Shown here in pieces: positions 5,074 to 37,004 of a stretch of DNA of 64,000 nucleotides. The notes beneath the pieces were generated by a model. It made no database searches and was not told where the DNA came from. It was given only the letters and a program-made list of their open reading frames with translations. The stretch's first letter is position 1, and each line of letters starts with the position of its first letter. Source of the stretch: Gephyromycinifex aptenodytis (GTDB taxonomy: Bacteria; Actinomycetota; Actinomycetes; Actinomycetales; Dermatophilaceae); assembly GCF_012277275.1 (NCBI RefSeq), contig NZ_CP051155.1, forward strand, positions 682,001-746,000. Reading direction: 5' to 3'. The translations under genes and the position numbers were made by a program.

Positions 5074-8000
5074 TCAGCGCAGGTGCGCGTCTTCGACCAG
5101 GTCCATTGCCTTGTAGATGCGCTTCTCCGAGACCGGATGGGCGGTTCCCAGCGACTGCGCGAACAGACTGATCCGCAGCTCCTGGATCATCCACCGCAGA
5201 GCCACCACGTCATCGGCGGCCCGTTCACAGGCCGGCAACGACTCGATCAGACGCACCCGCTCGGCCTCGACGGTGCGCACGATCTCCAACCGGCCCGCGT
5301 CCCGCCAGATCTCCGTCGGCGCCTTCTCCAGCCGGGCGAGCATGCCCTGCAGGTACCGGGGCAGACGCGGCAGGTAGGTGTGACCGGTCTCGGCGACAAA
5401 GCCCGGATGCACCAGGTCTGCCAACTGCGCGCCAAGGTCGGCCTTCATCGCGGCCAGGTCGGGTTGGGCCGGGGTCTTCATCGCGTCCAGCGCCAACCGC
5501 ACGGCAAGGGCCCGGTCCAGTACCGGGTGCACGTTCTGAACGATCTCGATGACGGTGGGCACGATCTCGCGTCGCACTGCCGCCAACGCATCCTCGAATT
5601 GGGCGGGGGTGCGCACCAGCTCTGCGCCCTCGGCCGCCAGTCGCCGTGCCACGATCGCATCCAACGCCGCCGCCAGCACGTCATCGAGCAGGGCTGGAAC
5701 ACTGCCGTGCGGGTTGTTGCCCAACGCCAACTTCTGGGTGTTGGACAGCAGACCGAGGATGCGTTTCCACGGCACGCTGGTATTGAGCAACAGCAGGCGC
5801 CGTACGCCGAGTCGGGTGGCGGCGAGTTGTTCTGCCCGCCCGGCCAGGACCTGCACGGCCACCGAATCGCCTTGATCGACCAAAGCCGGATAGCCGTGCA
5901 CGCTGCGCGTGCCGACCCGACGGTCGAAGACCTCGGGTAGCTCCTCGAACGCCCACGAGGTCAGACCGGTGCGTTCGATGTCGTGGGCGGCTTTGGCCAT
6001 CGTGGTGCGCACCGCCGGCGCCAAGGCTTCCTGCAGCTCGCCGAGGTCTTTACTCTCCCCCAGCTTGCGCCCGGCGGTGTCTTCGACCCGGAAGGTCATC
6101 CGCAGATGGTCCGGAACGCGGGAGGGGTCCCACTCGCCGACCGGGACCCGGTGTCCGGTGCGGATGTACAGCGCCCGCCCGAGCTCCTCCACCAAGGGCA
6201 CCCCGGCTTCCATCTCGGCCTCGTCGGCTTGCGCCAGCGCCTGGCGCGCGTGGTCGGGGGTGGGTACGAAGTTCTTGCGGGTCGCCTTAGGCAAGCTCTT
6301 CAGCAGCGCCGTGGCCAACTCCGAACGCAAACCGGGCACCTGCCAGTCGAACCCCTCCACGCTGACCTGGTTCAGTTGCTCGACCGGGATGTGCACGGTG
6401 ACCCCGTCGGCGTGGGCGCCCGGCTCGAACTGGTAGGTCAGTCGCAGCCGCAGCTCGCCCTGCACCCACTCGTGGGGATAGTCCCGGGCATCTACCGCGT
6501 CGGCATCGTCGGAGACCAGGAAGTCCTCGGTGAACGTCAGCAGTTCGGGACGGCGCCGACGCTCCTTCTTCCACCAGGCATCGAAGTGCGCGCCGGAGAC
6601 GATGCTGGCGGGCAGGCGGGTGTCATAGAACTCCACCAGGGTTTCCTCATCGACGAGGATGTCGCGGCGCCGGGCGCGCGATTCCAGCTCGGCGAGCTTG
6701 GCGATGAGTTTGCGGTTGTCGTGGAAGAAGCGGTGCGGGGTGTCCCAATCACCTTCGACGAGCGCGTTGCGGATGAACAACGCCCGGGATTCCTCCGGGT
6801 CGATTGCCCCGTAGCTGACCGGTCGGGCGGTGACCAGTGGCACGCCGTAGAGGGTGACCCGTTCGTTGGCGACCACGCCGGCGCGTTTGCGGCTCCAGTG
6901 CGGTTCGCTGTAATTGCGTTTGAGCAGGTGCGCAGCCGCCTCCTCGATCCATGCCGGATCGGTGGCCGCATTGGTGCGCGCCCACAGCCGCGATGTCTCG
7001 ACGAGCTCGGCGCTCATCACCCACTCGGGGTTCTTGCGGTGCAAGGCCGAACCGGGCTGGATCGCGAACTTAGCGCCGCGCGCACCCGCGTATTCGCGTC
7101 GTTCCCGGTCGTAGAGACCAACCTGGCTGAGCAGACCGGTCAGCAGCGCCTGATGCACCTGATCCGCCGAAGCCGGGTGCTCGTTGGGGTGCAGATCGAG
7201 TTCGCGCAGCGCTGAGTGCAACTGGCTGACCAGGTCCTGCCACTCCCGAATCCGCAGGTAGTGCAGGAATTCGGCGGCGCACATCCGCCGGAAAGCGCTG
7301 CCGGAGAGCTCCTTCTGTTTCTTGCGCAGGTACTTCCACAGGTTGAGGATGCCGATGAAGTCCGAGGACTCGTCCTTGAACCGGGCATGCTGCTGGTCGG
7401 CCTGGGCCTGTTTCTCCAACGGCCGCTCTCGCACGTCCTGGATCGACAAGGCGGCCACGATGATCATCACCTCGCGCAGCGCCCCGGTGTGCTCGGCCGC
7501 CAACAACATCCGCGCCAGTCTCGGGTCGACCGGCAACCGCGAGATGCTGCGCCCGAGCGGCGTGAGGCGCCGACGGGGATCAGGTTCGTCCGGATTGATC
7601 GCGTGCAGTTCGTGCAGCAGCCGCAGCCCATCGGTGACCATCCGTGAATCCGGGGGTTGCACGAACGGGAACCGGGCGATGTCGCCCAGACCGAGCGCCG
7701 TCATCTGCAGGATGACCGAGGCGAGGTTGGTGCGCAGGATCTCGGGGTCGGTGAACTCGGGACGGGCTTCGAAGTCCTCCTGGGAGTACAGGCGGATCGC
7801 AATGCCGTCGGCGACCCGACCGCACCGACCGGAGCGCTGGTTGGCGCTGGCCTGACTGATCGGCTCGATCGGCAGCCGCTGCACCTTGGTCCGCTGGCTG
7901 TACCGGCTGATCCGGGCCGTTCCGGCGTCCACCACGTAGCGGATCCCCGGGACGGTCAGCGACGTTTCTGCCACGTTGGTCGCCAACACCACGCGTCGCC

Positions 8001-9827: not shown

Positions 9828-11315
9828 CTACAGACCGACCAGCAGAGCCCCGGGCCGCTCCACGCAGTCCGCGACATAGCGCAGGAACCCGCCGGCCACC
9901 GCCCCGTCGCAGACGCGATGGTCGAAGCTCAGCGAGAGCTGGGTCACCGGACGTACCGCGAGTTGGCCCTCGACGACCCAGGGCTTGTCGATGATGCGGC
10001 CCACGCCAAGCATCCCGGCTTCGGGGTGGTTGATGATCGGAGTCGAGCCGTCGACCCCGTACACCCCGTAGTTGTTCAGCGTGAAGGTACCTCCGCTCAT
10101 CTCCTGCGGGCTCAGTGTCCCGGCCCGGGCACGCTCGGTCAGGTCACGGATCGCCGCAGCAAGCTGCTCGGTGCTGAGTTGATCGGCGTGATGCACCACC
10201 GGAACCACCAACCCGCGCGGGCCCTGCGCGGCAAACGACAGGTGCACATGTGGCAGCCGGACGATCTCCCGGGCTTCCTGGTCGACGCGAGCGTTGAGCT
10301 CCGGGAAGCGCACCAGACCTGCGACGACGATCCGAGCCAGCAGCGCCAGATAACCGATCCGGGCCTGCGGCACACAGGCCGCGATATCGGCCTTGAGTGC
10401 GGCCAACCCGCTGGCATCCACATCGACCCAGGTGGTGGCGTCGGGGATTTCAGTGCGGGATCGAGAAAGCCGCTCTGCCATCACCTTTCGGATCCCCGTG
10501 ATCGGGATCCGCTCGTCGCGTAGCCCCACCGGCGCTGTGGGCGATGCGTCCGGCGCGCCTGCTCCCGAGGCTGCGTCGGCTGGACTGCTCTGGGCAACCT
10601 GTGCGCCGGCCTGGTCGGCGCGCGCCTCGCTGCCCTGGGCCCGCTCGCTCGCGGCAGCCTCGACGTCCCGGCGGGTGATGACGCCCCCGGCGCCGGTGGG
10701 GGTGATCGCCAGCAGGTCCAGAGCATGCTCGCGGGCAAGCTTGCGCACCAGCGGCGAGATGACCCGCACCGCCTGCGTTGCGGCCGAACCACTCTGGGCC
10801 GCTGCCCCGGTGGGCTGCGCTGCCGAGTCTGCTGGGGCCATCTCCTGCGGCTGCGTCGCGGCCACCGATCGGCTTTGCGAACCAGCTTCAGCCGGGTCGA
10901 CCCCGCTGGGTGAGGCGCGCCCGATGCGTCTGCGGCGCACCCGCGTCGTCTCCGAGGTGCCGTAGCCGATGAGGACGTTGCCCGACCCGGCCCGTTCTTC
11001 CTCCATCCGCTCCTGCACCTGCGGCTCGCGCCGGCTGGCCTCTTGGGCCAGCACGGTGTCGCTGTCACTGCCGACGCTGGTCTCGATGCTGATCAGCGGC
11101 TTGCCCACGTCGAGCACCTGGCCGGGCTCGACATGCAGTTTGGCCACCGTCCCGGCGTACGGGCAGGGCAGCTCGACCTGGGCTTTGGCGGTCTCCACGA
11201 CGGCGATCACCTGGTCGACGGCCACCTGCTCGCCGAGGGCGACTTCCCAGGTGACAACCTCGCCCTCGGTGAGTCCCTCGCCCAGGTCGGGCAGCACGAA
11301 GGTCTTCTCACTCAT
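9828..11315 (-). CDS. bkdC: 2-oxoacid dehydrogenase complex E2 (branched-chain type) dihydrolipoyl acyltransferase
   Basis: 495 residues. The N-terminal lipoyl domain carries the lipoylation lysine in VVETAKAQVELP (Lys44). An Ala/Gln/Ser-rich linker leads to a peripheral-subunit-binding domain (ISPLVRKLAREHALDL...GAGGVITRRDV), a second linker, and the catalytic domain ending in FDHRVCDGAVAGGF, with catalytic His466 and Asp470 of the HxxxDG motif. It transfers acyl groups from lipoate to CoA. It is the last gene of bkdABC: the E1-beta stop overlaps its start by 4 bp, implying translational coupling. Branched-chain specificity rests on similarity to Mycobacterium BkdABC and the divergent Lrp-type gene; a pyruvate dehydrogenase role is the alternative. 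No E3 gene is in the window. Confidence 0.92.
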   Translation of the reverse strand: MSEKTFVLPDLGEGLTEGEVVTWEVALGEQVAVDQVIAVVETAKAQVELPCPYAGTVAKLHVEPGQVLDVGKPLISIETSVGSDSDTVLAQEASRREPQVQERMEEERAGSGNVLIGYGTSETTRVRRRRIGRASPSGVDPAEAGSQSRSVAATQPQEMAPADSAAQPTGAAAQSGSAATQAVRVISPLVRKLAREHALDLLAITPTGAGGVITRRDVEAAASERAQGSEARADQAGAQVAQSSPADAASGAGAPDASPTAPVGLRDERIPITGIRKVMAERLSRSRTEIPDATTWVDVDASGLAALKADIAACVPQARIGYLALLARIVVAGLVRFPELNARVDQEAREIVRLPHVHLSFAAQGPRGLVVPVVHHADQLSTEQLAAAIRDLTERARAGTLSPQEMSGGTFTLNNYGVYGVDGSTPIINHPEAGMLGVGRIIDKPWVVEGQLAVRPVTQLSLSFDHRVCDGAVAGGFLRYVADCVERPGALLVGL

Positions 11316-28657: not shown

Positions 28658-30166
28658 TCAGCCGCAGTGCAGGTGTCGCTGAACCAGTTCACCCAAGGCG
28701 GCATCATCGCCGAAGAGCCGCTCGCTCAGCCCTTCGTCGCCGAGGTCCTCCAACTGTTCGGCCACCGAATCGAGCAGGCCGGTCGGGAAGACGCCATCCT
28801 CGGCGTAGATGTGGCGGTCGGCTCGCAGTGCCCGGCCGGATTCGGTGCACGAGGCCGGCAACTGGTCCAGGCCCTGAACCGTAGCGGCATCGGTATCCAC
28901 CAGGAGTCTCTGGGCCACGTCCAGGGACTCGGGGTGCTCCAGCCCGTAACGGGCCGCTACCGTCAGCGCCGCCATGTAGAAGTGCACGCTCGCCGAGCCG
29001 TCACCGCTACGGATCTCCACCGTCTGCGGGTTCGGGCCCGACAGAGGCTCAACCTGCGGCTCGCACGGGTTGGCGGAGCCGACCATGCTCATCGCGTCCC
29101 CAGTCCAGCCCAATGGCACCCGGACCAGGACCGAACGGTTGCTACGTCCCCAGCAAATGCTGGTCGGCGCCTCCTGTTTGGGGACCAGACGCAGGTAGGA
29201 GGTGGGCACCGTGTTGCCGAAGGCAGTCAGGGAACGAGCGCACATCAGGTAACCGGCGATCACCTTGCGCGCCGCAGCTGAGAGGTCGTCATCCTCGACG
29301 AAGGCGTTGACGCCGTCCTTCATCAACCGGGTGTGGACGTGGAAGCCGCTGCCGGCCTGCCCGACGATGATCTTGGGAGCGAAACTGACCTCCAGGCCAT
29401 GGGCATAGGCCACCTCGCGCAGCACCCACTTGGCCAGCACCACCTGGTCGGCGGCCTCCTCCACCGGCACCGGCAGGAATTCGATCTCACCCTGGACCAT
29501 CTGGCGCCCCTCGCGCACGATGTTGCCGACCTCGGCGTGCCCGTACTTGATCTGGGCGCCCATCCGGGCCAGATGCATCATCGCCTCCCGGCGCACCACG
29601 CCCCACTTCGAGAACGGGTGCGACTCGTGGTATCCCCGCTGCTCGGTGATGGGGTAGATCTCTTCGGCCCGGTCGAAGATGTAATACTCCAGCTCCCCGA
29701 GGGCTTCCATGGTGTACCCGGTGCGTTCCTGCAATGACCGCTGTGCCTTGGCCAGGACGTTCTCCGGAGCGCTCTCCAGCGGTTTGCCCTCGCGGGTGTA
29801 GAAGGAGCACAACAGGTCGATCGTCGGTTCCTCGGCGAAGGGGTTGATGAACGCGGTGCGATACCGCGGCACGACGTACAGATCGCTGGACTGGGCATCG
29901 ATGAAGGGGAACAAGCTCGAGCCGTCGACCCGCTCCCCCAGGGTCAGCACCGTTTCCAGGTGGGCACGACTGTTGATGACGAAGTTGAGCTTCTTCAGCC
30001 GCCCGTCCCCGGCGACATAGCGCAGGTTCAACATTCGGATGCCGAGCTCTTCAACCGCCCGCACGATGTCGGCCCGGGTGAATCGGGATGCCGGTTTACC
30101 GAGTAAGCGAACGAGCGTGTTCGGGTTGAGGTTGAATGCGCTGTCGTGCGCGGGGTCGTGTGCCAT
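28658..30166 (-). CDS. Glutamine synthetase catalytic-family protein, ~500-residue Bacteroidetes-like type
   Basis: 502 residues. The GS catalytic pattern is present in modified form: MEALGELEYYIF (metal Glu), KYGHAEVGNIVREGRQ then VQGEIEFLPV (replacing the HHEVxxGQxE block, with an insertion), IIVGQAGSGFHVHTRLMKDG (G-x-G-x-H-x-H), SYLRLVPKQEAPTSICWGRSNRSVLVRVP (ATP/glutamate Arg block) and VEIRSGDGSASVHFYMAAL (usual ExRxPD...N block altered). The N-terminus (LVRLLGKPASRFTRADIVRAVEELGIRMLNLRYV) and the C-terminal HCG ending are as I recall for a GS type common in Bacteroidetes, unlike actinobacterial GlnA1-A4. It would make glutamine or a gamma-glutamyl compound. The ATG at 30166 follows GGAG. 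It appears monocistronic. Confidence 0.85.
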   Translation of the reverse strand: MAHDPAHDSAFNLNPNTLVRLLGKPASRFTRADIVRAVEELGIRMLNLRYVAGDGRLKKLNFVINSRAHLETVLTLGERVDGSSLFPFIDAQSSDLYVVPRYRTAFINPFAEEPTIDLLCSFYTREGKPLESAPENVLAKAQRSLQERTGYTMEALGELEYYIFDRAEEIYPITEQRGYHESHPFSKWGVVRREAMMHLARMGAQIKYGHAEVGNIVREGRQMVQGEIEFLPVPVEEAADQVVLAKWVLREVAYAHGLEVSFAPKIIVGQAGSGFHVHTRLMKDGVNAFVEDDDLSAAARKVIAGYLMCARSLTAFGNTVPTSYLRLVPKQEAPTSICWGRSNRSVLVRVPLGWTGDAMSMVGSANPCEPQVEPLSGPNPQTVEIRSGDGSASVHFYMAALTVAARYGLEHPESLDVAQRLLVDTDAATVQGLDQLPASCTESGRALRADRHIYAEDGVFPTGLLDSVAEQLEDLGDEGLSERLFGDDAALGELVQRHLHCG

Positions 30167-30232: not shown

Positions 30233-30250
30233 CGGCAGAGCGCCCACGCC

Positions 30251-30300
30251 GAGCGGCCCGGCCGCCGATCCCCCTATCGGGGACGGCGACCGGGCCGCTC
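30251..30300. terminator. Long inverted repeat after the malectin-GH26 gene
   Basis: GAGCGGCCCGG (30251-30261) pairs exactly with CCGGGCCGCTC (30290-30300), and an inner GCCG-TCCCC/GGGGA-GGC stem extends it. It is 18 bp beyond the GH26 stop codon, so it probably terminates that gene. Confidence 0.6.
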
Positions 30301-30317
30301 GATGGTGTGCTGCGACC

Positions 30318-32411
30318 TCAGGAGGTCTTGGTCAGCAGCGGCATCCAGCGCTTGTATTCGGCCGAGGCCTTCGGGCTGTTGCATGTGAACAGGTCGGAAC
30401 GGATGTAGCTCATCGACTCACTGAAGTAGCTTTCGTAAGCGATGTGTTCCTGGTTCTGCTTCAGCCAGTTGTAGACGAAGTTGATGTACTTGGGGTTGTC
30501 GCCGCCACCGGCGGAGTTCGCGGGCGCGATGCCCCACTCGGGCAGGACGAACTTCTTACCGTGGGCCTTGGCGAAATTCAGCCAGTGGTTCCACCCGTAG
30601 GCCTCATCCCGGTGACGGGCGATGTTGGCGTCGGTGGTGTAACCAGGCCACCAGTCGTAGGCGTCCATTCCGATGTAGTCCACGTAGGCATCACCGGGGT
30701 AGAAGATGGCGGCGTCCTTGGTGCCGGTCTGGCCGGGGCCCTCGTTGACCACCCAGGCGATCCGCAGGTTCGGGCCGCCCTTGCGGATGGCGCCCACCGC
30801 CTGGCGGTAGGCCTGCTTCCACTGATCGGCCGTGTTCGGGTAGGCGGCTGCCTTCCAGCTCGGCAGGTTCATCTCCCAGCCCAGACGGATGTAGGCGTCG
30901 GGGTAACGGGCTGAGATGTTGCGGGCCAGCCTCTCCCATTCGGCGTTGTAACCGCCGGCTGCGGCCGTGGACAGGTTGCCGTCGTTGGGCCACAGCGGCA
31001 CTCCCACGTCCAGAGTCCCCTTGTACCCGGCCGGGATCCGTTCGTTGTCCATGAACCAGGTGCTCTGCATGTTGTTCCAGGATTCCCGTGACGGGAAGAC
31101 GGTGATGACGTCGACCTTCTTACCGCGGGCGTTCTCCCACTTGGTGACCTCCCCGGCCTTATTCATCGGGTACATGCCCGAGTCGAACAACAACCCGCTC
31201 TGCTTGCCGAAGTTGGACTTGGAACTGCCTGGGGCGGGCGTGGTGGGTGCCGGAGTCGTGGGTGTCGGTGCAGGTGTGGTCGGTGTCGGTGCCGGCGTGG
31301 TGGGGGCTGGGGTGGACGGTGTCGGTGCCGGCGTCGTCGGGGTAGGCGCGGGCGTACCGGAGCCGCCGACCTTGGAAAGGACGATGGCTGAGACGGTGGC
31401 GCCGTTGACCTTGCCGGTGAAGCCCAAGTCGAGACGGCCATCTTTGACCTCGACGCGGAAGGTGCGGTTGTAGGCCACGTCCTTACCAGCGGTCTTGATC
31501 AGGTCTAGATCGTTGATCTGGGGGCGGCCCTCGGCGGTGACGCTGAACACCCGCTCACCGGCGGAGCTGAAGTAGGCCTCCCGCATCATCAATGTGACGT
31601 CGTAGGTGCCGTTGGGCACGGCACGCTGCCAGGCGGACATGTGGATGTACTCGGGGCGGTACGGGGCGTCGTTGGTGGTGCCCTTGACGTCGCGCCCGTC
31701 AGAGAAGAGCGTCTCGTTGGACCAGCCACCGACGAACCCCGAGCGACCTTCGTAGGTGCCGTCCGTCCCCTTGATGGGCTTGGTGGAGGTCGTCATCCGG
31801 GCCACGACCGAACTCGTGTCGGGAGCCGGCGTGGGTGCGGGGGCGGGGTCGGCGATCCGGGTGACCTCCAGAGCCGAGAGCGCAGCCGAGTCCTTGGTGG
31901 CCGTGAAACCAAGGTCGAGTCGACCGTCCTTGACGGTCACGTCGAAGGTGCGGTCGTAGGCCGCGCCCTTACCGACCGCGGCGAAGATGTCGATATTCGA
32001 CAGCTTGGGCTGACCTTCGGCCGAGACGGAGAAGACACGGTCACCGGCCTTGGTCCACCAGCTCTCCCGCATCTTCAGGGTGACCCGGTAGGTGCCGTTC
32101 TCCATCTGCTTGGACCAGGAGTTCATCCGGACCAACTCGGGGTAGTAAAGCGCGTCCTCTGAGGTCCCCTTGATGTCGGTAGGGGCCCAGTAGGAGGGGG
32201 AGAAGTCGCCGGTGTCGAACCCGGCGCGAGCCGCCCAGGTTCGACCGGCCGAGTCCCGGTAAGAGGTGTCTGCAACCGTCATTCGGAAAGAGTCCCCGAC
32301 TGCGGCTTGCGCCGGCTGGGACATCGTCAGGGCAGCGCCACCCATGGTGACGGCAAGGGCAAGAGTCGTGATCGCGCTGGCAGGACGCGTGATCACCGAA
32401 GACTTTTTCAT
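30318..32411 (-). CDS. Secreted malectin-malectin-GH26-like glycoside hydrolase
   Basis: 697 residues. Signal peptide 1-36 (cleavage likely after AQA). Two tandem malectin/carbohydrate-binding-like domains (about 37-190 and 200-350) share the pattern RMTxADTSYRD/TKPIKGTDGT...NGTYxVTLxMRE...RxFxVxxKDGRLDLGFT. A Pro/Thr/Ala linker of about 40 residues follows. The C-terminal catalytic domain resembles GH26: RLGWEMNLPSW carries the probable acid/base Glu513, and FVLPEWGIAP the probable nucleophile Glu625. It is exported and would cut a polysaccharide, with the malectin-like modules binding sugar. It lies downstream of the glycosyltransferase gene but is separated by a terminator-like repeat, so it is its own unit. 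Substrate unknown; the context suggests the strain's own exopolysaccharide. Confidence 0.85.
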   Translation of the reverse strand: MKKSSVITRPASAITTLALAVTMGGAALTMSQPAQAAVGDSFRMTVADTSYRDSAGRTWAARAGFDTGDFSPSYWAPTDIKGTSEDALYYPELVRMNSWSKQMENGTYRVTLKMRESWWTKAGDRVFSVSAEGQPKLSNIDIFAAVGKGAAYDRTFDVTVKDGRLDLGFTATKDSAALSALEVTRIADPAPAPTPAPDTSSVVARMTTSTKPIKGTDGTYEGRSGFVGGWSNETLFSDGRDVKGTTNDAPYRPEYIHMSAWQRAVPNGTYDVTLMMREAYFSSAGERVFSVTAEGRPQINDLDLIKTAGKDVAYNRTFRVEVKDGRLDLGFTGKVNGATVSAIVLSKVGGSGTPAPTPTTPAPTPSTPAPTTPAPTPTTPAPTPTTPAPTTPAPGSSKSNFGKQSGLLFDSGMYPMNKAGEVTKWENARGKKVDVITVFPSRESWNNMQSTWFMDNERIPAGYKGTLDVGVPLWPNDGNLSTAAAGGYNAEWERLARNISARYPDAYIRLGWEMNLPSWKAAAYPNTADQWKQAYRQAVGAIRKGGPNLRIAWVVNEGPGQTGTKDAAIFYPGDAYVDYIGMDAYDWWPGYTTDANIARHRDEAYGWNHWLNFAKAHGKKFVLPEWGIAPANSAGGGDNPKYINFVYNWLKQNQEHIAYESYFSESMSYIRSDLFTCNSPKASAEYKRWMPLLTKTS

Positions 32412-32607
32412 CGCGGCAGGGTTCCTTCGGCATAAGGAGTGAGACGCCAAACTGATCGTCTGCTCCGGCCCCGGCCGTACCGTTTTGCTGCAAACTGCCG
32501 CGCCGCGCGCCACGCCAAGCGCCGCTGGGGAACCCTCCGACGGCATCCCGCCGATGGCGGGATGGTGACCAATCCCAGCCCCGGAGCTGAGAATCGGTTA
32601 CGCGCAC

Positions 32608-32643
32608 GATGCGGGGCGCCCAAGCGTCCGGGCGCCCCGCATC
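32608..32643 (-). terminator. 14-bp perfect stem after the fused glycosyltransferase
   Basis: GATGCGGGGCGCCC (32608-32621) and its exact complement (32630-32643) surround an 8-nt loop. It is 53 bp beyond the glycosyltransferase stop (32696) and 197 bp before the GH26-like start, so it separates the two transcription units. Confidence 0.65.
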
Positions 32644-32695
32644 ACCAAAACTTTCTCACGTCACGTAAGGGTGCTTGTCCCACATGGCGGACGAT

Positions 32696-34885
32696 TCAGG
32701 CGGGCAGGACCTCCGCTACCGTTCCCAGTGCCGAGTCCCAGCCGTAAATGGACAGCATCGCTGCGACCTGCTCTGCGGGAATGACCAGCGGGCCGCCGGC
32801 CAGTTCCTTTCGGATCGCGGCGCAGAAGGCCTGGGCATCCTCTGGGGTCTGCACGATCGCCCCGCGAGGCAGGTTGTCCAGGCCGGAAGCCCCCACCACC
32901 GTGGAGACCGAGGGCAGCCCGTGCGCGATGTACTCCAGCAGCTTGATGCGCGAGCCGCCACCCTCCAACAACGGCGCAATCCCCAGCCGGGCCCGCTCCA
33001 ACAGCGGTTGCATGCTCGGCACGTCCGCCTCCAGGCGCACCCCTGGCGCGGCCTCTAGGCGTGCTCGGAATTCCGCCGAAGGGTTCCGCCCAGCGACGGT
33101 GAGCACAATCTCGGGGCGTTCGGCCACCAGATCGCGCCAGGCCTGACTCTCGATCAGCCAGGTGATGCCGTTGATGTTGGGGCGCCAGTCCAGGGCTCCG
33201 GTGAACAGCAACTCGGTGCGCGGGTTCTGCGCCAACGCAACCGCGCGTTGAGAGCCGCTCGGCGGGGTCACCCCGTTGCGGGCCACAACGACCTCGGCGC
33301 CCCCGTCCCGACGAACCCGGTCGGCGTCGGCCTGCGTGCAGACCACACTCGGGTAGGACGTGCCAGGACCGCGCTCCAGCCGGCGAAGCAAGGACGACTC
33401 GAGATGGGCGGCCACCTTGGTGGGCCCACTTTCGGCGCCGGCGCGCTGCCGCATGAGGTCGGACTCGACGTTGTGGGTACTCAGGATCACCGGCAACTGC
33501 GGCGGGAGAGAGTCGGCGACCCCGAAAAGGCAGGTGTGGTCCACGACAGCAGCCTGGAAGGGACCCAGTTGCGCCAGTGTCTCGCGTAGACCGGTGATCA
33601 GCGCGGAACCGCAGGTGCGCGGGGCGCCCAGGCAGCGATAGGTCGGCAAGGTGAATGCGTCGGCCACCAGCGAACGTGATGGGGCTTGGCGCAACTGCTC
33701 AATGACCACTTCGCCTTGCACGGTGCGTAGCCCGGTAACCCCGCGCGGTGAGACCACAACCACCGGCGCCCGCCCGGCCAGCCAGCGTGCGATGGCCAAG
33801 GTGCGCAGCATGCCGCCCGAAGTCGCGGGTACCCCGAATTCCTTGGTGATGAGCAGGTAGGGCCGCTCGGCGGCCGACCCCTGCACCGACGCGTTCGCCG
33901 TCTGGGCCGTCTCACGCATCCGGCGGGCGGCGACCTCTTCACCAGCCACGAAGGCGCGCCCGGTGAGCAGACCTTTGGCCTGGGCCAGATACTGCGCGGC
34001 CAGATCCCGGTCACTCTTGCCTATCTGCACGCCCGAGCGCAGCAGGTAACCCCCCGCGAGGATGCTCTGCATGGCTTTGGCCTGCGGCCCGGGGTGGTAA
34101 CGGTTGACGTAGTTGGAGAAGGAGGCGCCCTTCATCCGCATCATTTCCAACGACGGGGCGCCCGAGGACCCGGCACCGTGCCGCACGACCACGTCGTGGC
34201 GCAGTCGTTGACCCAACCCAGCCTGGCGCACCCGGCGCCCGAAGGACATGTCCTCGGAATAGACGAAGAACGATTCATCGAACCCGCCGAGCCGGCGGAA
34301 CTGCTCGGTTCGCACCGCCATACAGGCCCCGGTGGTCCAGTCCACGTCCAGACGCTCACCGATCGCGGGCTTGGCGTAGACGCCGATCTTGGGCCACTTC
34401 TTGTGCAGGCCCACCGCGTAGGCGCTGGTCCGGAGCACGTCCGGCTCCCATCCCCCGACGCCGATCTCGACGTCCTCATCAGCGCTGGTCACCGTGGCGG
34501 CGTGCGATGCCGACAGCGGGTCCACGGCCAGACCGTCCACGAGCGCGCGCAGGTCATCGACCGTCGGGCGCGAGTCGGGGTTGACGAACACGACAAAGCG
34601 TTTGGTCGAACTGAAGGCGCCGAGATTGGCCGCCCGGGCGAAGCCCTGACCGCCGCCGTCGAGGTAGCGCACCAGCGGCTGGTCAGCCGCGAACTGCGCC
34701 AGGCCGTCTGCGCCGCTGGCGTTGTCGACGATGACCACCGCCAGGCCTGGCCACATCTGGACCAGCTGTTCTACGTGCGCGCGGCTGCGATAACTGACCA
34801 GCACGACTTCGATCTCATCGAGATCGACCCGTGTTTCCCCCGCGGACTGATCGATCCCACTCCGATGTTGCTGCATCATGCCCAT
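32696..34885 (-). CDS. Two-domain glycosyltransferase, GT2 fused to GT4
   Basis: About 729 residues. The N-terminal GT2 domain (rhamnosyltransferase-like) has VVLVSYRSRAHVEQL, VDNASGADGL, the metal/sugar-nucleotide motif VFVNPDSRP, and WTTGACMAVRTEQFRRLGGFDESFFVYSEDMSF. The C-terminal half is a GT4-type transferase: YLLITKEFGVPATSGGMLRTL, VVARNGVTPP, ELLFTGALDWRPNINGI and GIAPLLEGGGSRIKLLEYIAHGLPSVST, with the nucleotide-sugar Glu motif. It probably adds two sugars in sequence to a lipid-linked oligosaccharide at the inner membrane face. The start is uncertain: ATGs at 34885, 34879 and 34876 all lie near G-rich ribosome sites; a TTG at 34918 is also in frame. It is divergent from the priming transferase. 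Confidence 0.9.
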   Translation of the reverse strand: MGMMQQHRSGIDQSAGETRVDLDEIEVVLVSYRSRAHVEQLVQMWPGLAVVIVDNASGADGLAQFAADQPLVRYLDGGGQGFARAANLGAFSSTKRFVVFVNPDSRPTVDDLRALVDGLAVDPLSASHAATVTSADEDVEIGVGGWEPDVLRTSAYAVGLHKKWPKIGVYAKPAIGERLDVDWTTGACMAVRTEQFRRLGGFDESFFVYSEDMSFGRRVRQAGLGQRLRHDVVVRHGAGSSGAPSLEMMRMKGASFSNYVNRYHPGPQAKAMQSILAGGYLLRSGVQIGKSDRDLAAQYLAQAKGLLTGRAFVAGEEVAARRMRETAQTANASVQGSAAERPYLLITKEFGVPATSGGMLRTLAIARWLAGRAPVVVVSPRGVTGLRTVQGEVVIEQLRQAPSRSLVADAFTLPTYRCLGAPRTCGSALITGLRETLAQLGPFQAAVVDHTCLFGVADSLPPQLPVILSTHNVESDLMRQRAGAESGPTKVAAHLESSLLRRLERGPGTSYPSVVCTQADADRVRRDGGAEVVVARNGVTPPSGSQRAVALAQNPRTELLFTGALDWRPNINGITWLIESQAWRDLVAERPEIVLTVAGRNPSAEFRARLEAAPGVRLEADVPSMQPLLERARLGIAPLLEGGGSRIKLLEYIAHGLPSVSTVVGASGLDNLPRGAIVQTPEDAQAFCAAIRKELAGGPLVIPAEQVAAMLSIYGWDSALGTVAEVLPA

Positions 34886-35292
34886 CCCCCCATGGTTTCC
34901 TGCAGATCTGCAGGGCAACCTTAAACCTGAGGGTGTTCATCTGGACAATCGACCGAGATACGTGCAAAAGATCGAGTTACCGCAGCTCAGCTGAGCCGGA
35001 CTGTCCGAGTGCGGGGTTCGCCGAGATTACGAATCGCTTCCCCACCTGGGCGACCCGCCCACATGCGCTAGGAGGTGGCATCGGGCGGTATCGGTGGTTA
35101 GAGTGGGTCCGTCGTCCAAGTCAGGTGTCTGGAATCAGCAGGGCGTGAGCGTCCGCGGAGTCGGGGCGGGCATCTGGCATCAAGGGGTATTCGGGGGCTG
35201 TGCGGCGTTTTGACGTCAGGCACAGGCTGTGTTCAACACGGAGGGGTCTTCACTTGTCCATTCACGAACGTGAGGTGACCGGAGAAGCACGA
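34886..35292. promoter_or_regulatory. Divergent control region of the exopolysaccharide genes (407 bp, no gene)
   Basis: No coding frame is convincing here. The gap holds two perfect palindromes: CCTGCAGATCTGCAGG (34899-34914, 16 bp) just ahead of the glycosyltransferase start, and GCTCAGCTGAGC (34985-34996). A TTGACG near 35208-35213 is a -35 candidate for the priming transferase but lacks a good -10. The long leader suggests regulation, but no known riboswitch is recognised. Confidence 0.4.
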
Positions 35293-36816
35293 ATGTCGCA
35301 TCGCCGGTCCAAACGACCCCGTGTCGGGGCCGAGCGTGTGTCGGTGCCTGGGGGGGCTACCGCAGTCAACGCGCCGTCCATCGACGGCGACATCTTTGCT
35401 GTCGCTTCTCGCGCAGGAACCTGGTCGCGCCGCTACCTGAAGCGCCTGGTCGCCTTTGACCTCCTCGGCGCGCTACTGGCCGTCGGTGCGGCTCTGGCCA
35501 TCGGGCCCGGCGCCCGCGACATGAACATGTCGTATGTCATCGCCAGTGCCGCTATGCCGCTGTTGTGGATCGGCGCACTGGCCCTTTCCCGGGCTTATGA
35601 ACGCCGTTATCTCGGCGTTTCCGACGAGGAGTACCGCGCAGTCGGTCGCGCCGTCGTCGGTCTGCTCGGGTTGCTCGCTGTCGGCGGGCTCTTCGTCAAG
35701 GCGCAATGGAGCCGCTCCTACATCTTGACGCTGATCGTCTTGCTCTTCGCGTTCGGGCTGCTGGCCCGCCGGCTGTGCCGGGTCTGGCTGGAACGGCACC
35801 GCAGCGAGGGCCGCCTCATGCAGCGCACCGTCGTCGTCGGGCGCGCTGACGCCGCCGCCGAACTCATCCGCAACATCAAGCGTTCGCCTGACCAGGGCCT
35901 GGACGTAGTCGCGGTCTGCACGTCGGGACTGGACTCGGACTGGAACACCACATCCTCCATCGAGGGCGTGCCGGTCATGGGGAACGCTTACGACGCCGTG
36001 TCTGCCGTGGACCTGTGCGATGCAGAGGTCGTGGCTGTCACCTCCCACCCCGAACTGGCCGGGAAGGGGCTGCGCCGCCTGGCGTGGGCACTCGAAGAGC
36101 GCGATGTCGAACTGGTGGTCTCCACCGGACTGCTCGACGTTGCCGGGCCGCGGTTGTCGCTGCGCCAGTCCACGGACATGTCGCTGCTGCACATCGAACG
36201 TCCCGCGGCTACCCGCCGCTCGGTCTTCCTCAAGAGCCTCATGGACCGCACGCTGGCAGCGTTGCTCGTCCTGGTCCTGTCACCGTTGTTCCTGGGCATC
36301 GCCCTGGCCATCAAGCTCACCTCCCCCGGCCCGGTGCTGTTCAAGCAGAAGCGGGTAGGGGTTGGTGGCGAGTTCTTCACCATCTACAAGTTCCGCACGA
36401 TGGTCGTCGACGCAGAGAAGCAACTCGCGGCCCTCATGCAGTACAGCGACGGCAACGCGGTGCAGTTCAAGATGAAGAAGGACCCGCGGGTCACCCCGAT
36501 CGGCGTCTTCTTGCGCCGGTTCAGCCTCGATGAACTGCCGCAACTGTTCAACGTGCTCATCGGCAACATGTCGCTCGTGGGCCCACGCCCGCAGAGCCAG
36601 GCAGAGGTCGAGCAGTACGAGCCCGACGCCATGCGGCGCCTGCACGTTCGCCCCGGCATGACCGGCCTGTGGCAGGTCAGCGGCCGAAGCGACCTGGACT
36701 GGGAACAGTCACTGCGGCTGGACCTTCGGTACGTGGACAACTGGTCGCCCATCGTGGACCTGCAGATCTTGTTCCGTACCTTCCGCGCCGTGATCACCAG
36801 CAACGGAGCCTACTGA
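35293..36816 (+). CDS. Polyprenyl glycosylphosphotransferase (exopolysaccharide priming sugar transferase)
   Basis: 507 residues from the ATG at 35293 (GGAG eight bases upstream). Four N-terminal membrane helices (FDLLGALLAVGAALAIG, AAMPLLWIGALALSRA, VGLLGLLAVGGLFV, ILTLIVLLFAFGLLA) precede a CoA-binding/Rossmann-like domain (TVVVGRADAAAELIRNIK). A further helix (ALLVLVLSPLFLGIALAIKLTS) leads to the sugar transferase domain: SPGPVLFKQKRVG, FTIYKFRTMV, RRFSLDELPQLFNVL, MSLVGPRPQ and RPGMTGLWQVSGRS. This is the WcaJ/CpsE (PHPT) architecture. It transfers a sugar-1-phosphate to undecaprenyl phosphate to begin polysaccharide repeat units. It is divergent from the GT2-GT4 gene. No flippase, polymerase or chain-length gene is in the window. 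Confidence 0.95.
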   Translation: MSHRRSKRPRVGAERVSVPGGATAVNAPSIDGDIFAVASRAGTWSRRYLKRLVAFDLLGALLAVGAALAIGPGARDMNMSYVIASAAMPLLWIGALALSRAYERRYLGVSDEEYRAVGRAVVGLLGLLAVGGLFVKAQWSRSYILTLIVLLFAFGLLARRLCRVWLERHRSEGRLMQRTVVVGRADAAAELIRNIKRSPDQGLDVVAVCTSGLDSDWNTTSSIEGVPVMGNAYDAVSAVDLCDAEVVAVTSHPELAGKGLRRLAWALEERDVELVVSTGLLDVAGPRLSLRQSTDMSLLHIERPAATRRSVFLKSLMDRTLAALLVLVLSPLFLGIALAIKLTSPGPVLFKQKRVGVGGEFFTIYKFRTMVVDAEKQLAALMQYSDGNAVQFKMKKDPRVTPIGVFLRRFSLDELPQLFNVLIGNMSLVGPRPQSQAEVEQYEPDAMRRLHVRPGMTGLWQVSGRSDLDWEQSLRLDLRYVDNWSPIVDLQILFRTFRAVITSNGAY

Positions 36817-36835
36817 GCCTCCTGGACGAGACTTC

Positions 36836-36882
36836 AGACAACTGTCGCGCCACGCCCCTCGGGTATGGCGCGACAGTTGTCT
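36836..36882 (+). terminator. 17-bp perfect stem after the priming transferase
   Basis: AGACAACTGTCGCGCCA (36836-36852) and its exact complement (36866-36882) enclose a 13-nt loop, 20 bp beyond the stop codon. It is one of the longest perfect stems in the window. Confidence 0.75.
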
Positions 36883-37004
36883 GCGGTACTTGGTGCAGGC
36901 CACCCCAGCGCAGTTCCACTCCGGGTCAGGCGAACGGCCGACGGGGGCAACCGACTATGGCCGTTGCGTCCCGCTTGAGTGCCACGGGGCCGAACCGGCA
37001 AAAC

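Follow-up and report, generated by a model that had tools for sequence, protein, structure and literature searches.

A conserved trio of probable exopolysaccharide genes in Gephyromycinifex aptenodytis and its candidate partners elsewhere on the chromosome

How can a locus made up of a priming transferase, a glycosyltransferase and a secreted hydrolase, with no flippase, polymerase or chain-length control gene at hand, take part in the synthesis of a surface polysaccharide? The question is raised by positions 30318-36816 of a stretch of 64,000 nucleotides (the window), which covers 682001-746000 of the closed chromosome (3,449,783 bp) of Gephyromycinifex aptenodytis. Strain NJES-13 of this species, obtained from the gut of the emperor penguin and assigned to the Dermatophilaceae, has a G+C content of 67.0% (PMC8400323) and shows a visible exopolysaccharide (EPS) layer (PMC8400323, PMC8779670). 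An original prediction had described the locus as a minimal EPS island of only three genes, possibly a small surface-glycan system. The three open reading frames (ORFs) and their domains were corroborated by an ORF check, Pfam, TIGR03025 and a profile and fold match to the lichenase Lic26, and are as follows (window coordinates):

30318..32411, minus strand: secreted hydrolase (P0001) with signal peptide, two malectins, Pro/Thr linker and C-terminal GH26 domain
30318-31214, minus strand: C-terminal GH26 domain of the hydrolase
about 30873-30875 and 30537-30539, minus strand: catalytic Glu pair of the hydrolase, from the alignment to 2bv9
about 31370-31815 and 31855-32305, minus strand: malectin domains of the hydrolase (Pfam Malectin 1.3e-31, two stretches)
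32696..34918, minus strand: fused glycosyltransferase (P0002), Pfam Glycos_transf_2 and Glyco_trans_1_4
about 32699-33865, minus strand: GT4 domain of the fusion (Pfam)
about 33899-34813, minus strand: GT2 domain of the fusion (Pfam)
35200..36816, plus strand: polyprenyl-phosphate hexose-1-phosphate transferase (PHPT, P0003), Bac_transf 4.3e-69, TIGR03025 EPS sugar transferase 7.7e-126, divergent from the GT2-GT4 gene

It can be hypothesized, with chances that we consider about even, that the trio contributes the initial steps and the hydrolase to a Wzx/Wzy-dependent EPS pathway whose genes are scattered over the chromosome. In such a pathway the PHPT would put a sugar phosphate on undecaprenyl phosphate and the GT2 and GT4 halves of the fusion would add the next sugars in the cytoplasm; a solitary Wzx-like flippase encoded at 2.490 Mb would turn the lipid-linked unit over and a Wzy-like protein encoded at 3.043 Mb, the best candidate, would polymerise it. 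With its two malectins as anchors on this polymer, the secreted GH26 enzyme would then cut it, resulting in release, trimming or remodelling of the coat. Of the elements of an EPS pathway, the locus contains a priming PHPT (Bac_transf and TIGR03025, the latter match above its cut-off) and cytoplasmic repeat-unit glycosyltransferases (GT2 and GT4 in P0002).

The trio and candidate partners outside the window

The conservation of the trio in related genomes, which the original prediction had proposed to check, was evident: the same order and orientation were found in eight relatives (L003 to L009 and L079), namely Mobilicoccus caccae, Mobilicoccus massiliensis, Mobilicoccus pelagius, a Mobilicoccus metagenome-assembled genome, Piscicoccus intestinalis, Kineosphaera limosa, Agilicoccus flavus and G014, a closed genome of 2.63 Mb. 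In Agilicoccus flavus GT2 and GT4 are separate genes.

Within the window, Pfam scans of the other large ORFs revealed housekeeping and metabolic genes and no polysaccharide assembly genes beyond the trio. Genome-wide searches placed every Wzx, Wzy and Wzz match outside 682001-746000, in agreement with the lack of such genes in the window stated at the outset. The search for dispersed wzx and wzy genes, also proposed at the outset, pointed to two loci (chromosome coordinates):

2,490,135-2,491,445: solitary Wzx-like flippase candidate, homologue of the Austwickia and G042 Wzx
3,042,801-3,044,306: Wzy-like polymerase, best candidate, homologue of the Austwickia and G042 Wzy

These assignments are based on Austwickia chelonae and on G042, a genome from another family of the order, in which the corresponding genes stand beside homologous transferases. 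When ten flippases and polymerases of G. aptenodytis were compared, the 2.490-Mb protein was the sole match of the Austwickia Wzx (31%, 2e-48) and of the G042 Wzx (38%, 8e-69), and the 3.043-Mb protein was the sole match of the Austwickia Wzy (28%, 1e-33) and of the G042 Wzy (28%, 1e-31); searches of the whole genome with the Austwickia Wzx and Wzy gave these two proteins alone. Neither of them has a Pfam match, and Pfam Wzx/Wzy models by themselves would have missed both candidate partners. The description of a system of only three genes is not supported, since a flippase and a polymerase of the types found with these transferases in other genomes are encoded at distant loci.

The distribution of these proteins was analyzed by whole-genome searches in 58 genomes. 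A strong GT2 match was detected in seven, all of which (7/7) have Wzx and Wzy of these types. Among the remaining 51 genomes this Wzy is absent from every one (51/51) and this Wzx from 50, the one exception being a 75%-complete genome; co-occurrence of GT2, Wzx and Wzy gave a Fisher value of 3e-9, kinship being ignored. The 2.490-Mb flippase gene adjoins a methionine-aminopeptidase-like gene, and its synteny extends to Mobilicoccus, Piscicoccus and G014. The G014 copy has a polysaccharide deacetylase gene as a neighbour, a family that is likewise represented at the Austwickia locus and adjacent to Wzx in G050.

Two solitary Wzy_C proteins, encoded at 33 kb and 2.40 Mb, were considered as partners and dropped: among the trio genomes compared, a syntenic copy of the first occurs in Mobilicoccus only and a close homologue of the second in Piscicoccus only. 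The gene at about 33 kb (L023 9784-11127), O-antigen ligase-like, is syntenic in Mobilicoccus pelagius and lies far from any polysaccharide cluster.

Compact loci in relatives and the GT2-GT4 fusion

In Austwickia chelonae (L010) two separate genes encode GT2 (6125-7078) and GT4 (about 9990-11176), and the interval between them holds the genes for a Wzy-like and a Wzx-like membrane protein. This array, GT2 - Wzy-like - Wzx-like - GT4, is flanked by two GH26 genes and by genes for a Wzz-like protein, a deacetylase, a second GT2 and a hexapeptide acyltransferase. In G042 (L081/L082) a PHPT-like gene, GT4, GH26, Wzx, Wzy, GT2 and a second GH26 occur within about 26 kb. Because GH26 genes adjoin a complete Wzx/Wzy locus in both organisms, action of the hydrolase on the polymer of its own producer is favoured. 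A second GH26, 49% identical to an Austwickia GH26, is also encoded in Piscicoccus (contig C25, L152 18831-19961), about 7 kb from a Wzy of the 3.043-Mb type.

The GT2::GT4 fusion occupies the position where wzy and wzx stand in Austwickia. In the fused proteins the end of the GT2 part coincides with the C terminus of the free GT2 proteins of Agilicoccus (EETARA-stop) and Austwickia, and the linker that follows, up to the GT4 start, varies in length and sequence. In Agilicoccus flavus the GT4 start lies 83 nt past the GT2 stop, behind a GA-rich stretch resembling a ribosome-binding site. Based on these comparisons, the fusion is probably the scar of the departure of wzy-wzx, and the simplest order of events would be loss of the pair from between GT2 and GT4 followed by fusion. 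A different history, in which wzy-wzx entered the locus in Austwickia alone, is less likely, given that Wzx and Wzy of the same types are encoded near GT2, GT4 and GH26 in G042. The three arrangements within one family (GT2-wzy-wzx-GT4 in Austwickia, adjacent GT2 and GT4 in Agilicoccus, and the fusion in G. aptenodytis and seven other genomes) may tentatively be viewed, with doubt somewhat outweighing confidence, as a cluster caught in the act of scattering, with flippase and polymerase kept elsewhere and a malectin-tethered GH26 enzyme dedicated to the cell's own polymer.

The conserved start of the window PHPT is probably the TTG at 35254 (LSIHERE), and in the PHPT tree the trio proteins form their own supported clade. 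The possibility that the window PHPT corresponds to the Austwickia PHPT was discarded, since the Austwickia gene lies outside this clade and adjoins L25-like and prs-like genes, a setting that resembles the 1.385-Mb PHPT paralogues of G. aptenodytis. G. aptenodytis (two copies), Austwickia and G014 have in common a PHPT gene in the vicinity of L25-like and prs-like genes (L030 211-1893 and 2622-4196; L153; L164), the G014 copy being split into two frames.

Several observations weigh against the scattered-pathway hypothesis. The dispersed Wzx and Wzy are only 28-31% similar to those of Austwickia; five of the seven GT2 genomes belong to one family, so that the counts are not independent, G042 and G050 representing two other families; and the Wzz-like genes found elsewhere in the genome are not linked to the trio. 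Furthermore, as far as the tree goes, Agilicoccus may represent either a pre-fusion state or a later split. The 3.043-Mb Wzy is encoded in another conserved polysaccharide region with its own flippase and PHPT and may serve that region alone, for which reason its assignment to the trio is tentative.

In an alternative that dispenses with polymerisation, the trio would make a short lipid-linked oligosaccharide, exported by the solitary flippase for transfer to protein or to a wall polymer. The flippase, but no polymerase, is clearly freed from other clusters, and a PHPT with two transferases would give about three sugars. However, the homologous loci of Austwickia and G042 include a polymerase, that of Austwickia also a Wzz-like protein, and an endo-type GH26 enzyme with two binding domains fits a polymer better than an oligosaccharide; we regard this alternative as quite improbable.

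The hydrolase, its surroundings and its possible substrate

The hydrolase ORF opens at 32546; translation likely begins at an internal ATG, at 32411, ahead of the signal peptide, as in the orthologues. The Pfam GH26 score is 20.4 bits vs a cut-off of 20.2, and GH5 (PF00150) scores slightly higher. A profile of 12 hydrolase homologues matched Clostridium thermocellum Lic26 (2bv9) with 4.3e-18, and the predicted catalytic domain compared with the Lic26 fold gave a TM-score of 0.79-0.81. The Glu residues in RLGWEMN and LPEWG, invariant in the 12 homologues, align with E109 and E222 of 2bv9, its catalytic acid/base and nucleophile. At the level of profile and predicted fold the C-terminal domain is thus confirmed as a member of GH26. 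The fold predicted for the N-terminal half resembles human and Xenopus malectin and plant tandem-malectin ectodomains; in the model (mean pLDDT 79, good over the domains) the mutual placement of the domains is not fixed (pTM 0.49). In the draft assembly of Piscicoccus (L005 / L085) the hydrolase gene is frame-broken within the malectin part, its GH26 part being intact.

Three hairpins delimit the genes of the locus (window coordinates):

30250..30301, no strand assigned: strong hairpin 3' of the hydrolase gene, -62 kcal/mol, z -7.5, probable terminator
32608..32643, no strand assigned: perfect 14-bp inverted repeat between the GT2-GT4 and hydrolase genes, -36.5 kcal/mol, z -3.8
36835..36883, no strand assigned: strong hairpin 3' of the PHPT gene, -49.7 kcal/mol, z -8.5, probable terminator

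The hairpin at 32608..32643 is probably a terminator without a T run, and therefore the hydrolase is likely a separate transcript. As the PHPT is divergent and hairpins follow GT2-GT4, the hydrolase and PHPT, the trio is probably not one operon and probably comprises three transcription units. In a composition scan the G+C content at the trio (0.65-0.68) equalled that of its surroundings, and core genes are present on both sides, so the locus is not a genomic island; found at the same place in the eight relatives, it is better described as a fixed part of the core than as the minimal island first proposed. The flanking ribonucleotide reductase, glyoxalase-family and DUF445 genes are conserved too, yet they come and go while the trio stays: glyoxalase and glutamine-synthetase-like genes are missing at the Piscicoccus and G014 loci, and ribonucleotide reductase was not found in the Kineosphaera stretch. 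The idea of a small surface-glycan system stands in part: conservation indicates that the three genes belong together, but the trio is not a whole system. The glutamine-synthetase-like gene (28658-30166), situated between the hydrolase and DUF6308 genes, occurs at the same spot in some relatives only (M. caccae, M. pelagius) and is absent in others. Piscicoccus and Kineosphaera contain an extra opposite-strand GT2 gene at the GT2-GT4/hydrolase junction (77% identical between them).

A separate transcript would suit a hydrolase that merely neighbours the transferases and acts as a scavenging glucanase or mannanase on foreign polysaccharide. The characterised GH26 relatives are lichenases and mannanases, and the flanking genes are conserved as well, so neighbourhood alone proves little. 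This explanation is nevertheless highly doubtful, considering that GH26 adjoins homologous transferases in Austwickia and G042 despite different flanks, order and family, and that a GH26 gene is known from within a Wzx/Wzy cluster of Actinoplanes missouriensis (PMC13390465).

Another possibility is that the trio feeds a malectin-rich polysaccharide cluster at 3.10 Mb (L028, G000:C1:3092001-3112000). Besides Wzx, Wzy and Wzz, this cluster encodes three transferases, an acyltransferase and secreted malectin proteins; each of the five trio genera examined has it. No PHPT was found among its genes, so the window PHPT might start the polymer of this cluster and the malectin-GH26 enzyme might act on it. 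The hydrolase malectins are 31-46% identical to those of the secreted proteins of the cluster, and no malectin domain was recognised in the Austwickia GH26 proteins, suggesting that the hydrolase malectin may be borrowed. On the other hand, a Wzy of the 3.10-Mb type also occurs in four genomes without the trio GT2 (G035, G045, G049 and G052) and is missing from the GT2-bearing G042 and G050, and Austwickia has a cluster of the 3.10-Mb type plus, separately, the local Wzx/Wzy beside GT2/GT4. Such a role for the trio is therefore considered rather unlikely, and the scattered pathway served by the 2.490-Mb and 3.043-Mb proteins is preferred.

Three secreted or membrane proteins of the 3.10-Mb cluster (L028 931-2547, 2804-4891 and 7653-8936), two of which carry malectins, have in common a conserved domain of about 300 residues. 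This domain gave no Pfam match, no informative NCBIfam match and no PDB fold match (best E 0.6), in spite of a model that is confident over most of its length; at least six further genomes encode homologues of these proteins beside the same Wzy. For M. pelagius it has been stated that the wzx, exo and muc genes for EPS known from NJES-13 were not found (PMC8400323). In the present analysis M. pelagius (L008, L105) possesses the trio as well as the solitary flippase and a Wzx/Wzy cluster of the 3.10-Mb type.

Significance and comparison with known systems

A polysaccharide locus that looks incomplete can be filled in by searching the chromosome with the flippase and polymerase that a relative retains in place, and the arrangements described here provide a concrete series for how such clusters come apart. 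GH26 enzymes, mainly known from plant glucan and mannan breakdown, become candidates for handling a bacterium's own coat. Since a polysaccharide with strong flocculating activity, its structure unsolved, has been reported from G. aptenodytis, the involvement of the genes named here can be tested.

The closest parallel is wps-1 of Actinoplanes missouriensis, an 11-gene Wzx/Wzy cluster with the GH26 protein WpsE, which likewise represents an actinobacterial Wzx/Wzy locus with GH26 and GT2 genes (PMC13390465). It differs in being compact, with wzx, wzy, wzz and sulfotransferases together, and the accessible text of that paper mentions neither malectin nor a GT2-GT4 fusion. According to its authors, writing in 2026, no Wzx/Wzy cluster involving a GH26 enzyme has been characterised so far (PMC13390465); in the literature found, WpsE is the one GH26 noted in an actinobacterial Wzx/Wzy cluster. 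In the imp cluster of the same species the gene for the hydrolase GimB adjoins the genes making the polymer it cuts, as demonstrated experimentally; however, GimB belongs to GH5 rather than GH26, and the transferases and flippase are clustered (PMC12691653). In Pseudomonas aeruginosa the glycoside hydrolase PslG is encoded with polymer synthesis genes and shapes the matrix (PMC9075953). For the sanxan pathway of Sphingomonas sanxanigenens, a proteobacterium, polysaccharide genes scattered over the chromosome and a cluster-to-scatter model have been described; the abstract mentions neither a fusion scar nor GH26 (PMC5399355). Lic26 (PDB 2bv9) is the closest solved relative of the catalytic domain, with the catalytic Glu pair aligned, but is a plant beta-glucan enzyme, about 20% identical, whose solved chain lacks malectin. 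Altogether, the parts are of known kinds; what is new is their combination and the series of arrangements in which they are found.

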